Assembly (NCBI GenBank): GCA_009773415.1
Contig: WSNO01000018.1
Location: 1-52,935 of the forward strand
Origin: Nitrospirota bacterium
GTDB taxonomy: Bacteria; Nitrospirota; Thermodesulfovibrionia; Thermodesulfovibrionales; Dissulfurispiraceae
DNA length: 52,935 nucleotides
Reading direction: 5' to 3'
The position numbers and the translations under genes are program-made. Numbering within the stretch: the stretch's first letter is position 1; each line of letters begins with the position of its first letter. Under the pieces are notes generated by a model. The model was not told the DNA's origin, searched no databases, and saw only the letters and a list, made by a program, of their open reading frames with translations. This document shows positions 2,641 through 36,254 of this stretch, one piece after another.

Positions 2641-4920
2641 TTAATCCTGATCTCTGCTGCGGGTTATTTTGTCGACAAGGGAGGACGAGGAGGAAGCCGA
2701 GCCGTCGGGAGCAATGTCTCTCGGCTGTGTTCCTGACTTGAAGAACTCCTGCAACGCTTTATCGCTATAGGAAAGAAGACCCGTCGCCGGGTCTATCGCC
2801 ACGCGCACGATACCTTCAGGAACGGCAAATCCTGCTCCGCTGCCGCCGATGCTCTTCATATAATCGCTCCAGATGGGGGCCGCAGCGCGCCCGCCGACTT
2901 CCTCTCTGCCGAGCGGTCGTCGCATGTCATCGAAGCCTACCCATACCGCCGTCGCAAGGTCCGGCGTGTACCCGACAAACCATGCGTCCTTGTAGTCATT
3001 TGTCGTGCCGGTCTTGCCTGCGGCGGGCCTGCCGATGGCGGCGCGCCCGCCGGTCCCGTAACTGATGACATCCTGCAGCATGGAGGTAAGAAGAAAGGCG
3101 TCCTGCTCGCTCATGGCGACAATCCCTTCAGGCTCGCACGACTCAAGGAGGTTGCCTTTGGCATCTCGAACCTCAAGAATCGAGATCGGGCGGATTGCAA
3201 CGCCGGCATTCGCAAAGGTTGCATATGCGGCTGTCATTTCGAGCGGTGTTACGGCGACGGAGCCGAGGGCAATCGAGAGTTCTGCCGGAATTTCCTGCTG
3301 TATGCCGATGTCCTTGGCGAAAGCGATTGCCTTTGCAACACCGACAGACTCCAGCAGCTTTACCGTCACAACATTGCGAGAAAAAGCGAGGGCCTCGCGT
3401 AGGCGCGTCGGACCGTAATGCTTGAGGTCATAGTTTGACGGACTCCACGAACCATAGGAGAGCGGTTCATCATTGACAACGCTGGCCGGCGTGAAACCAT
3501 GCTCCAGCGCGGCGCCGAAAATGACCGGCTTGAAGGCCGAACCCGGCTGGCGCTTTGCGAGCACTGCCCGGTTAAATTCGCCGCGCGAAAAGCTGAAGCC
3601 GCCAATCAGCGCCTTGATATGACCGTTTTCAGGGGATATCGAGACGACCGCGCCTTCGACATCAGGCTCCTGGTCAAGGCTGAAGGCACCCTGCTTTGCA
3701 GTTACCGCCTTGAAACGAACCCATACAATATCTCCGACATTCAGAATATCTGTCAGTTTGAAATTTTTAATGACTCGGGTCTTCCCGTTTTTTTCGACAA
3801 TTGTATGTGCCCACTGTGCATCGGCTGCCGACAGCTTGCCGGTCAGTCCGCGGGACCTGATGGTGGCTTCTTTTGCGCTGAGCGCAATAACGACTCCTTT
3901 TGAAACGTCGCCTGCTGATGCCGAAAAAGATACTTTCGGCTCTTCGACATCTGTTTTCACGTTTTCGCGCTTTCCAATGGGACCCCGCCAGCCTCGACGC
4001 TTGTCTACCTGCCGCAGGCCCTCCTGCAGAGACTTCTGCGCCTGAAACTGATACTGTCTGTTCAGCGTGGTGTAAACGCGGAGACCTCCCTTGTAAACCG
4101 TTTCGACGCCGTATTTTGACTCGAGCTGCTGCCGGACATATTCAAGAAAATAGTTGTTCGCCTCGGTTGCGGTTTTCAGGGACGAGAGCAGAATCTGCTG
4201 CCGGCGCGCCTCGGTGCGCTGGGCGGGCTTCAGGTATCCTTCCTCTTCCATGAGCTGAAGCACAATCTCCTGACGCGACTTGGATCTTACAAGATCGTTA
4301 TATGGAGAATAGGTCGTCGGGGCCTTGACAAGGCCGGCAAGGAGCGCGGCTTCAGCGACTGTTATCTGCGAGACCGACTTGCCGAAGTAGATGCGGGACG
4401 CCATCTCGACACCGTACGCGCCATGGCCGAAGTATACATTGTTCAGGTAGAGTTCCAGGATTTCATTCTTGGACAGCTGTTTTTCGAGTTTGATGGCAAG
4501 CTGCATCTCCTTGAGCTTGCGGGTAATCGTCTTTTCCGGAGTGAGGAACATGACCTTGGCGAGCTGCTGGGTTATCGTGCTTGCGCCCTCTTTCAGGCTG
4601 GCGTGCATTATGTCTTTCACCAGCGCACGGGCGATGCTGATGTAGTCGATGCCGCTGTGGCTGTAAAAACGGCGATCCTCGACCGCGATAATCGCTTCCC
4701 GCATGTGCTTCGGTATCTCTTTCAGCGGCTGATGAATGCCCTTTTCCATCTTGAACTCGCCGATGAGCGAGTTGTCGTCCGCATAAATCTTCGCGCCGTC
4801 GGACGGACGGTACTTTTTGAGGTCCTCGACAGACGGCACGCCGGTTGCAAGCGCAAGAAAACCGCCGGCTGCCACTCCAAGGATTATGACGGAGAGAATG
4901 AGGATCCACCTGAAACGCAT
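2641..4920 (-). CDS. mrcA: Class A penicillin-binding protein 1A (bifunctional)
   Basis: 759 residues: short cytoplasmic N-terminus, one membrane anchor (about 5-27), GT51 transglycosylase (about 50-220) with catalytic Glu in VEDRRFYSHSGID and the KLKEMQLAIKLE segment, an OB-like insert, and a transpeptidase with SAFK (around 460, the acylated Ser), SRN and KTGT (around 635). All catalytic motifs are intact, so it should polymerise glycan strands and cross-link peptides in the periplasm. The C-terminal tail is Ser/Asp-rich. The start codon is unambiguous, but there is no Shine-Dalgarno sequence: a perfect TATAAT ends 5 nt before the ATG (see promoter entry). It is a single gene, convergent with the HD-GYP gene. 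Confidence 0.95.
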   Translation of the reverse strand: MRFRWILILSVIILGVAAGGFLALATGVPSVEDLKKYRPSDGAKIYADDNSLIGEFKMEKGIHQPLKEIPKHMREAIIAVEDRRFYSHSGIDYISIARALVKDIMHASLKEGASTITQQLAKVMFLTPEKTITRKLKEMQLAIKLEKQLSKNEILELYLNNVYFGHGAYGVEMASRIYFGKSVSQITVAEAALLAGLVKAPTTYSPYNDLVRSKSRQEIVLQLMEEEGYLKPAQRTEARRQQILLSSLKTATEANNYFLEYVRQQLESKYGVETVYKGGLRVYTTLNRQYQFQAQKSLQEGLRQVDKRRGWRGPIGKRENVKTDVEEPKVSFSASAGDVSKGVVIALSAKEATIRSRGLTGKLSAADAQWAHTIVEKNGKTRVIKNFKLTDILNVGDIVWVRFKAVTAKQGAFSLDQEPDVEGAVVSISPENGHIKALIGGFSFSRGEFNRAVLAKRQPGSAFKPVIFGAALEHGFTPASVVNDEPLSYGSWSPSNYDLKHYGPTRLREALAFSRNVVTVKLLESVGVAKAIAFAKDIGIQQEIPAELSIALGSVAVTPLEMTAAYATFANAGVAIRPISILEVRDAKGNLLESCEPEGIVAMSEQDAFLLTSMLQDVISYGTGGRAAIGRPAAGKTGTTNDYKDAWFVGYTPDLATAVWVGFDDMRRPLGREEVGGRAAAPIWSDYMKSIGGSGAGFAVPEGIVRVAIDPATGLLSYSDKALQEFFKSGTQPRDIAPDGSASSSSSLVDKITRSRDQD

Positions 4921-4925
4921 TTTGA

Positions 4926-4955
4926 ATTATAAACCAGCGGGTGCTAAAATTTCAC
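4926..4955 (-). promoter_or_regulatory. Predicted leaderless promoter of PBP1A
   Basis: Read on the minus strand: GTGAAA (4950-4955), 18-nt spacer, TATAAT (4926-4931), then only TCAAA before the ATG at 4920. Transcription starting about 7 nt after the hexamer would begin at the start codon. No GGAGG-like sequence is present. Confidence 0.55.
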
Positions 4956-33086: not shown

Positions 33087-33115
33087 TTGACACAGCAACT
33101 CATTTCTGATAGCTT
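33087..33115 (+). promoter_or_regulatory. Promoter of the T2SSE_N/ferritin-like gene
   Basis: Perfect TTGACA (33087-33092), 17-nt spacer, TAGCTT (33110-33115). RNA start expected at about 33122, 29 nt before the GGGAGG at 33151-33156. Confidence 0.55.
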
Positions 33116-33162
33116 CAATAAAAAGAGATCCTGCGCAGGGCCATCAACTAGGGAGGTCTGTC

Positions 33163-33804
33163 GTCGAACAGAACGCTGAATTAGGGATACTCCTTCTTGC
33201 TAAGGGACTTATCACGGAGTCTCAGCTTGACCATGCTCTTCAGGAACAGCAGTCGGGCTCCAGGACAATAGGTGATGTTCTGCTCGAACTCGGGTATGTT
33301 TCGAGCAATGATCTCGACCAGCAGTGCCGTGATCTCATGATGAAAAGCCTGCTGGAAGTGCTTCAACCCGTGTTCGATCTTGAACTTGTTGTTTCTGACT
33401 TCTATTATATGTGTGCTGAACAGTTTCCCGAGATAGCCGAATTCTGGAAGTACCTGGGAAACGACGGGATACGCCATTGCCTTTACATCGGACAGATCAT
33501 CGAAGCGCTTTATAAGCGTCCCCACTTATTTTCAAAGTGCAGTCCTTTTACTCCGCAGGTAGTCACTGATCTGACAGCATCTGTACAGCATGCTCACCGG
33601 CGCGTCAAGAGTGAGCATCTGTCTTTAAAAGAGGCATTGCGGTTTGCGTATGATTTTGAAATAGGCATGCTGGAGCACAGGCTTTTCGATCTGCTCTCCA
33701 CACGGGACGAAGAGGTTCAGAAGCTGATCGAGAGAATCAGGAGTGAAGCTCAGTTGCATCGGCAAAAGATAATAGATACCGCAAGCGGGGCAGGGGCTTT
33801 ATAG
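33163..33804 (+). CDS. T2SSE_N-like plus ferritin-like domain fusion, no canonical start codon
   Basis: 213 codons from 33163. Residues about 8-50 (LGILLLAKGLITESQLDHAL ... IGDVLLELGYVSSNDLDQQ) match the N-terminal domain of type II secretion ATPases (T2SSE_N, PF05157), here a free-standing adaptor. Residues about 60-205 are helical and resemble a ferritin/rubrerythrin-like bundle (ELVVSDFYYMCAEQFPE, FWKYLGNDGIRHC, FEIGMLEHRLFDLL, SEAQLHRQKIID), with some metal-site Glu lost. Promoter and GGGAGG (33151-33156) stand in front, but from the upstream stop (33088) to the ATG at 33337 the frame has no ATG, GTG or TTG. Spacing points to GTC at 33163. Either an atypical start, a start-loss mutation or a sequence error. 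Confidence 0.55.
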   Translation, partial: VEQNAELGILLLAKGLITESQLDHALQEQQSGSRTIGDVLLELGYVSSNDLDQQCRDLMMKSLLEVLQPVFDLELVVSDFYYMCAEQFPEIAEFWKYLGNDGIRHCLYIGQIIEALYKRPHLFSKCSPFTPQVVTDLTASVQHAHRRVKSEHLSLKEALRFAYDFEIGMLEHRLFDLLSTRDEEVQKLIERIRSEAQLHRQKIIDTASGAGAL

Positions 33805-33946: not shown

Positions 33947-34654
33947 ATGGTGGAACTCAGAAATATTTTTTTTCAGGCCGGTGCCCGGAAGATTCTCGAT
34001 GGATGCTCTCTTGTGGTTCGTCCTCATGAAATTCATGCCCTGCTCGGAACAAACGGAGTCGGCAAGAGCACTCTTGGATATATCATCATGGGCTGTGAGG
34101 GATACCAGCCTACCGCCGGGGAGATTCTTTTCAGGGGCGAAGTCATCAACCGGCTCGGCATTTCAGAGCGGGCGCGGCGCGGCATAACCATGACATGGCA
34201 GGAGCCGGTTCGTTTCGAAGGCATCTCGGTGCGCGACTATATCTCACTTCGGAATCCATCTTGCGATGAAGCCAGCTATCTCCGTCTTGTGGGACTCGAT
34301 CCCTCTTGGTATCTTCAGCGTATGGTCGATCGCTGTCTGAGCGGCGGTGAGCGCAAGCGAATTGAACTTGCTTCGGCACTCGCGCTTCATCCGCAGTTTG
34401 CCGTCCTGGACGAGCCTGATTCCGGCATTGATATGCTCTCTTTTGACGATATTGTCCATGTCATTCGGCTATTTCGTGATAACGGGGCTTCTGTGCTGCT
34501 TATTACTCACCGGCCTGAACTTGCCCTGATTGCGTCTTCAGCCTCGCAACTGTGCGGAGGGCGCATTGTCTGCACCGGATCGCCCCGGGAAGTTACAGAC
34601 TTTTTCATGGCAAAGAAGTGTTCTGTCTGTACTGAGGTAATGTGCGATGCCTGA
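33947..34654 (+). CDS. sufC: Fe-S assembly ATPase SufC, SmsC type
   Basis: 235 residues. ABC ATPase with Walker A GTNGVGKST (about 36-44), Q-loop in MTWQEPVRF, signature CLSGGERKRIELASAL, Walker B plus LDEPDSGID and the switch His in LITHRPE. The LDEPDSGID form and a Cys-rich C-terminal tail (KKCSVCTEVMCDA) are typical of the SufC partner in two-gene minimal SUF systems (SmsCB), found in archaea and many anaerobes. It powers the SufB scaffold in cytoplasmic iron-sulfur cluster assembly. GAGGGA precedes the ATG. Overlaps the next gene by 8 nt. Confidence 0.9.
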   Translation: MVELRNIFFQAGARKILDGCSLVVRPHEIHALLGTNGVGKSTLGYIIMGCEGYQPTAGEILFRGEVINRLGISERARRGITMTWQEPVRFEGISVRDYISLRNPSCDEASYLRLVGLDPSWYLQRMVDRCLSGGERKRIELASALALHPQFAVLDEPDSGIDMLSFDDIVHVIRLFRDNGASVLLITHRPELALIASSASQLCGGRIVCTGSPREVTDFFMAKKCSVCTEVMCDA

Positions 34655-35582
34655 GCTGGATTCCCTGATTGCGGCATACCGGAAGTGCGGGGGCGATGAA
34701 GGCGTACTTGCTGACGCGGAGACGCCGCATCTGCTGGCAAGCGGACATTCAGTTCTGAGCATGCGCGGGGTGGATGGACTCGATGTACAGACGTCTGCAA
34801 CTGACGACGGCATTATCATTCGTGTCGAGCTGGGCGAAAATGTCAGCCTGAAACAACCGCTTCATCTCTGTTTCGGGGTGCTCCATGAGGAAGGAATACA
34901 GCGAATTACCATACATGTTCGCCTGATGAAGAATTCCGCGGCTCATTTCATAGCCCACTGTGTATTCCCTGATGCCCGCAAGGTGCAGCATATCATGGAT
35001 GCGACGATTGAAATTGAAGAAGGCGCGGAGATGAGGTATGCGGAAACACACTACCATGGTCCATACGGCGGGGTTGAGGTTATTCCGAAGGCAACAGTGG
35101 TGCTGGGAGAGCGCGGACGCTATTATGCCGATTTTTCATTGCTGGAAGGCCGTGTCGGAACGCTTTCACTCGACTACGCGGTGCGGGCGGGCAAGGAAGC
35201 TGTTGCCGAGCTTTCGGCCCGCGTTTTCGGACATGGATGCGATGTGATTGTTCTCCGGGAAAAGATAGTTCTTGAAGGCGAAAATGCGCGCGGTCTGATC
35301 AAGACGCGCATTGCGCTGGAAGGGGACGCCTCAGCCGAAGTGACCGGGATTACCGAAGGGAATGCCGCCGGAGCGCGGGGACACGTGGACTGCACGGAAA
35401 TCGTGAAGGATAATGCGGTTGCAAGGGCAATCCCGGTTGTAAGCGTTATCCACCCGGATGCCAAGGTGACGCATGAAGCCGCCATCGGCAGCGTCGACAA
35501 AAAGCAGATGGAAACCCTGATGGCGCATGGATTGACGCCGGAAGAGGCCGTGGACATGATTGTGAAGGGGATTCTCCGATGA
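34647..35582 (+). CDS. sufB: Fe-S scaffold SufB/SufD family, SmsB type
   Basis: 311 residues, shorter than E. coli SufB (495). Beta-helix core: IEIEEGAEMRYAETHYHG, FSLLEGRVGTLSLDYAV, KIVLEGENARGLIKTRIAL, then the conserved end VIHPDAKVTHEAAIGSVDKKQMETLMAHGLTPEEAVDMIVKGIL. The family's catalytic His/Glu area (THEAAIG) is present. Alone with SufC and no SufD, SufS or SufU, it corresponds to the SmsCB minimal system; a cysteine desulfurase must come from elsewhere or sulfide is used directly (inference). Translationally coupled to smsC. Confidence 0.9.
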   Translation: MPELDSLIAAYRKCGGDEGVLADAETPHLLASGHSVLSMRGVDGLDVQTSATDDGIIIRVELGENVSLKQPLHLCFGVLHEEGIQRITIHVRLMKNSAAHFIAHCVFPDARKVQHIMDATIEIEEGAEMRYAETHYHGPYGGVEVIPKATVVLGERGRYYADFSLLEGRVGTLSLDYAVRAGKEAVAELSARVFGHGCDVIVLREKIVLEGENARGLIKTRIALEGDASAEVTGITEGNAAGARGHVDCTEIVKDNAVARAIPVVSVIHPDAKVTHEAAIGSVDKKQMETLMAHGLTPEEAVDMIVKGILR

Positions 35583-35615
35583 GGTGCCCCTCGTTCCGGG
35601 CATTCATGGTATAAA

Positions 35616-36254
35616 ATGACCGACAGCCCTCCGCTGAATCACGGGAATATCGCTCATTTAAACCTGACACTGCCTGCAGAGCGCATCGCCGACTTTTTTT
35701 ATCTGCTTCAGTCAGGATTTTATGTCGGCACCCGATATATCGGCTGCAGTATCCGCGCTTTTCTCAGCGGGCAGGCCGGCATGTCGGAAGAGTATATCAG
35801 TCGGCATATCAGCACTGTTTTTCTCGACGGAATGCCGGTAGATACTATTGATACCGCCCTGCTGAAGCACGGCTCGCGGCTGGCGCTTTCATCGGCAATG
35901 CCGGGACTGGTCGGGGCGACGATGCGGCAGGGGAGTCCGCTGGCCTCACTGAGGGATTCGATTTCGTATAAAGCCACCGGAAGCAGCGAGGGCGGGGAGG
36001 GATTTGTTTTTCTGAAACTGTTTAATCTGGTGATGAAGGAGCGGGGAAGTCAATTTCTGCAGAGCGGTATTCTGGTTACGGCGGGGGAACTCAGGACATT
36101 TCTTTGCGGTCATCCTCACAGTGTGCAAAGCTGCAATGAGATATTTCTGAATGGAACTGCCTGCGGAAATGACCGATTGCTTGACGCTGTGCTCAGCACC
36201 GGGGCTCACTATATTCGTATTGTTCTTCGCATACAAAACGGCGCCGCGTCATAG
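35616..36254 (+). CDS. Hypothetical protein with two internal repeats
   Basis: 212 residues, no signal peptide or membrane helix. I do not recognise a family. Two halves share a pattern: first FYLLQSGFYVGT ... IRAFLSG ... ISTVFLDGMPVDTIDTALLKHGSRLAL (about 27-95), then FLQSGILVTAG ... LRTFLCG ... NEIFLNGTACGNDRLLDAVLSTGAHYIRIVL (about 147-205). The repeat unit is FLQSG-x(~8)-(I/L)RxFLxG-x(~12)-(I/V)FLxG-x(~6)-DxxLLxxGxxxxL. That suggests a duplicated small beta-rich domain. The start lacks a Shine-Dalgarno sequence, and the gap after smsB is 33 nt, so it may be the third gene of the Fe-S unit. Confidence 0.7.
   Translation: MTDSPPLNHGNIAHLNLTLPAERIADFFYLLQSGFYVGTRYIGCSIRAFLSGQAGMSEEYISRHISTVFLDGMPVDTIDTALLKHGSRLALSSAMPGLVGATMRQGSPLASLRDSISYKATGSSEGGEGFVFLKLFNLVMKERGSQFLQSGILVTAGELRTFLCGHPHSVQSCNEIFLNGTACGNDRLLDAVLSTGAHYIRIVLRIQNGAAS

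Follow-up and report, generated by a model that had tools for sequence, protein, structure and literature searches.

The window analysed here, a stretch of 52,935 nt from a Nitrospirota bacterium, raises the question of how a gene is translated when its reading frame lacks a canonical start codon where coding appears to begin. The frame (33091-33804, plus strand) opens after an in-frame TGA (33088-33090). As the sequence-only reading of this DNA had stated, ATG, GTG and TTG are absent across 33091-33336 (82 codons), and ATG 33337 is the first canonical start. To assess the extent of coding, a codon-usage score (log-odds, bits per codon) was trained on long genes of the window itself. The score is +0.243 per codon for 33160-33336, compared to 0.23 ± 0.16 for the window's genes, and −0.43 for 33091-33159, compared to a wrong-frame value of −0.39. 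Since codon usage is gene-like from 33160 and not before, we conclude that coding begins at about 33160 and that the missing start does not stem from a misjudged frame. A frameshift was rejected as well, as the other frames offer no canonical start near the ribosome-binding site; the sole one in any frame across 33120-33215 is TTG 33197, which lies in a different frame. The resulting coding sequence (33160-33804, plus strand) comprises 214 codons and a stop, is free of internal stops and frameshifts, shows homology to an orthologue (L032) and a paralogue (L031), and encodes two recognizable domains. The length of the gap before the first canonical start was also compared within the window. Six open frames of at least 200 codons have an equally long one; judging by position, we take the five besides this frame to be spurious or antisense. 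Their codon scores are not all clearly non-coding (frame 4120-4932 scored 0.233) and, therefore, gap length alone is weak evidence and the argument rests on homology.

Upstream of the gene, a promoter is found at 33087-33115 on the plus strand (TTGACA, a 17-nt spacer ending in TGA as an extended −10, TAGCTT). The same layout precedes the orthologue (spacer of 18), the paralogue and the dac gene of the congener, and can be written in common as TTGACA-17/18-TGnTAGnnT. With spacers of 16-18, this pattern occurs at six sites in the 2.46 Mb genome and at none in a reversed control. Another site of the type (TTGACA-17-TAGCGT, preceded by TGT) is located in the window's genome at G000:C59:105226-105254. 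The promoter is followed by a nine-base ribosome-binding site, TAGGGAGGT (33149-33157, plus strand; GGGAGG at 33151-33156). Both elements were thus present where they had been placed from the sequence alone, the site being strong and the promoter conserved. The duplex of TAGGGAGGT with the standard anti-SD, used because no 16S was detected in the genome itself, has an energy of −12.4 kcal/mol, the best among 38 window starts compared, some of which are mechanical guesses of position. None of 5000 random 22-mers reaches this value. By the same calculation, the energies are −7.2 kcal/mol for the orthologue, −12.1 kcal/mol for the paralogue and 0.0 kcal/mol for ATG 33337. Since the site in front of the paralogue's ATG is almost as strong, the strength of the site is no sign of compensation for an unusual start.

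The position of the start was derived by comparison with a single congeneric genome (G001; one genome per species) and with the paralogue. The best relative in G001, taken as the orthologue, shows 41% identity along the full length and starts with ATG. At the start, AGGGAGGTCT-GTC-GTC-GAA-CAG-AAC of the window aligns with CAGGAGTGTCT-ATG-GTC-GAT-CAG-AAC of the orthologue, the codon before the start column being TCT in both, and TTGACA is 73 nt away from the start in both genes. The column of the orthologue's ATG and the equal distance from promoter to start map the window's start to GTC 33160-33162 (plus strand), the most probable initiator or former initiator. A second GTC (33163-33165, plus strand) lies one codon off the orthologous start. 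It was this codon that the sequence-only reading had proposed; it is indeed a GTC and better spaced after GGAGG (6 nt, compared to 3 nt for GTC 33160), but there are two GTCs and homology favors the first. Initiation at 33163 may nevertheless occur instead, given its spacing. On the homology reading, the critical base is consequently 33162 rather than 33165. The paralogue, 32% identical and encoded in the window's own genome, starts with ATG-ATG. Thus, GTC is conserved at the start of neither relative, and conservation of an atypical start is not apparent from these data. ATG in relatives had been named beforehand as the sign of mutation or error, and of the alternatives offered then, a GTC start and a recently lost start both remain in play, while the relatives speak against a conserved atypical start.

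The N-terminal part of the protein corresponds to an MshE-type motif domain (33178-33336, plus strand; 24+5+24 residues), spanning about 53 residues after position 6. The NCBIfam model NF053729 (c-di-GMP_motif; cut-off 38) scores 53.2 bits for the window protein, 55.4 for the orthologue and 67.9 for the paralogue, and a profile of the three family members matches MshE (PDB 5htl) with an E-value of 2e-13. Pfam MshEN itself gave no match with the window protein. A single-sequence AlphaFold model superposes on 5htl at 0.8-0.9 Å across about 50 residues; its mean pLDDT over the whole protein is 52.5, and it is usable for the N-terminal 50 residues only. This supports the earlier assignment of a T2SSE_N/MshEN-type domain that would be removed by a start at 33337, and, together with the codon usage, the claim that coding extends well upstream of that ATG. 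The exact 24+5+24 layout and glycines 11, 18, 40 and 47 of MshEN are retained. The window protein differs in Arg9 to Glu, Arg38 to Thr, Leu58 to Cys and Gln61 to Leu, and no ATPase follows the domain. In MshE, c-di-GMP is contacted by Arg9, Gln32, Arg38 and Gln61 (PMC5013675). The corresponding residues are E, Q, T and L in the window protein, so that Gln32 alone is kept. Of the four, the orthologue retains Arg9 alone, and the paralogue Arg38 and Gln61. Judged from these replacements, binding of c-di-GMP by the window's domain is doubtful.

The C-terminal part (33337-33801, plus strand), with ATG 33337 at its 5′ end, resembles rubrerythrin- and ferritin-like helical domains, as had been proposed: a profile of seven relatives matches the ferritin-like diiron protein 1vjx (E-value of 1.2e-6) and symerythrin. 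One stand-alone relative passes Pfam PF02915; for the window protein alone, no ferritin family of Pfam scored. The four-helix pattern and the ligand positions of helices 1, 3 and 4 of rubrerythrin-type proteins (1vjx TM1526, symerythrin, sulerythrin; PF02915) are recognizable, but glycine replaces the helix-2 glutamate. The complete di-iron set E/ExxH/E/ExxxH is consequently broken in helix 2 (ExxH to GxxH, here GIRH). The orthologue has EVRH and keeps the full pattern, and the paralogue has lost more (ARAQ). By its ligand residues, the domain appears diverged or degenerate. A stand-alone ferritin-like relative with the full ligand pattern is encoded in the congener (L033:1348-1836), and no separate copy of it was found in the window's genome. 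In a survey covering 176 genomes from the order and a draw of 395 from the phylum, this genus alone carried full-length fusions of the two domains; the gene belongs to a small family that, within the sampled genomes, occurs only here. A scan of genome contigs gave a single distant match, restricted to the ferritin part, and a literature search yielded no paper joining MshEN with rubrerythrin.

Does the neighborhood hint at a function? Downstream, from 33947, lie sufC and a SufB/D-like gene, the Fe-S genes whose proximity the sequence-only reading had pointed out. A meaning of this proximity is not supported: at the sufC locus of the congener (L080), the upstream gene codes for an NtrC-type regulator and the fusion gene is absent. 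The neighborhood is not conserved, and a link to Fe-S genes was rejected. The orthologue directly follows a nifS gene close to the end of a contig, possibly by coincidence. Three proteins are encoded in 33947-36254: an ATPase resembling SufC, a short SufB/D-like protein that, within NCBIfam, best matches SmsB of the minimal SUF-like system, and one of 212 residues without a match in Pfam or NCBIfam; the first two and the start of the third are conserved in the congener. The paralogue is located 19 nt before a diadenylate-cyclase-like gene (L031:2282-4014), lying between the promoter and the cyclase gene. In the matching ilvD-tRNA-dac locus of G001 (L090), the dac gene and promoter are present and the promoter directly precedes the cyclase, the paralogue being absent. 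The paralogue thus appears to have been gained or lost inside a cyclic-dinucleotide operon.

Based on these results, the gene is real and otherwise intact, with GTC in place of a start codon. Weak but genuine initiation at this GTC is the single likeliest reading, ahead of consensus error and decay, although we hold it with slightly less than even confidence. To our knowledge, GTC has one earlier known case as a start codon, in Streptomyces. There, sigR has a proven GTC start adjoining a AGGAGGTG site; replacing GTC with ATG raised reporter expression about 4-fold in one assay, and the GTC, proven by mutation, is shared by 32 of 34 species (PMC5472188). Likewise, the candidate initiator studied here follows an extended ribosome-binding site (TAGGGAGGT), and relatives outside the group use ATG. 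In contrast to sigR, the window's GTC is known from the sequence of one genome, and the congener has ATG.

Among the rival explanations, an error of consensus or assembly survives best, though we consider it unlikely. The true start would be GTG 33160-33162, with base 33162 either miscalled or taken from a minority strain in a metagenome bin. At the column of the orthologous start, GTC is a single base away from GTG. A search for 16S rRNA in the 2.46 Mb assembly of 61 contigs (completeness given as 100%) gave no match; the 61 contigs without a detectable 16S suggest a metagenome-assembled genome. However, substitution errors are rare in covered short-read consensus, there is no homopolymer at the site, and the remaining frame is clean.

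Somewhat less probable still is a start-loss mutation in a gene no longer needed, in which case the protein would not be usefully made and the frame would be a young pseudogene. Besides the ATG of the relatives, this would fit the fast divergence (41% identity, compared to 81% for the adjoining sufC), the lost metal ligand and the paralogue with an ATG in the same genome. Further, the congener's matching locus lacks the paralogue, so members of this family come and go. Yet 214 codons remain without stop or frameshift, and the promoter and ribosome-binding site are intact. Translation from ATG 33337 or 33340, giving the ferritin-like domain alone, is very improbable: it would use the first canonical start in frame, and stand-alone ferritin-like relatives exist in the order, but 33337 has no ribosome-binding site, gene-like codon usage and conservation extend over the 59 codons upstream of it, and the promoter and strong site are located at 33160. 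Other in-frame non-canonical codons are just as improbable as starts, since CTG 33106 lies within the promoter, codon usage across 33091-33159 is not gene-like, and ATA 33187 lies within the first motif helix without a ribosome-binding site.

We therefore return to weak initiation at GTC, which is favored because of the sigR precedent and the intact frame, and we infer that GTC is present in the living genome and acts as an initiator. Gene-like codon usage from 33160, the orthologue's ATG in this column at an equal distance from the promoter, and the strongest site among the starts compared speak for it. Against it, GTC, with two bases different from those of ATG, is no near-cognate codon, neither orthologue nor paralogue conserves it, and the first GTC lies just 3 nt past GGAGG. 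An ancestral ATG or GTG at 33160 would have become GTC, while the nine-base ribosome-binding site and the conserved promoter were kept. Ribosomes would still initiate at GTC 33160 (or 33163) with lower efficiency than at an ATG, and a low level of full-length protein would result, as for Streptomyces sigR.

Should the case instead be an error or a lost start, it would serve as a worked example of how such a case looks. The two-domain protein, with a paralogous copy near a cyclic-dinucleotide cyclase, may interest the field of cyclic-dinucleotide signaling, though most of its key contact residues have been replaced. A GTC that is genuine and in use would be a rare example in nature of initiation at a codon differing from AUG by two bases, and would show that gene callers drop whole N-terminal domains in such genes. 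Tentatively, a lineage remote from Streptomyces would then have the second bacterial gene naturally translated from GTC beside a very strong ribosome-binding site; a possible nucleotide-sensing/ferritin-like fusion would be kept at low levels sensitive to IF3, with ATG as the start of its paralogue.
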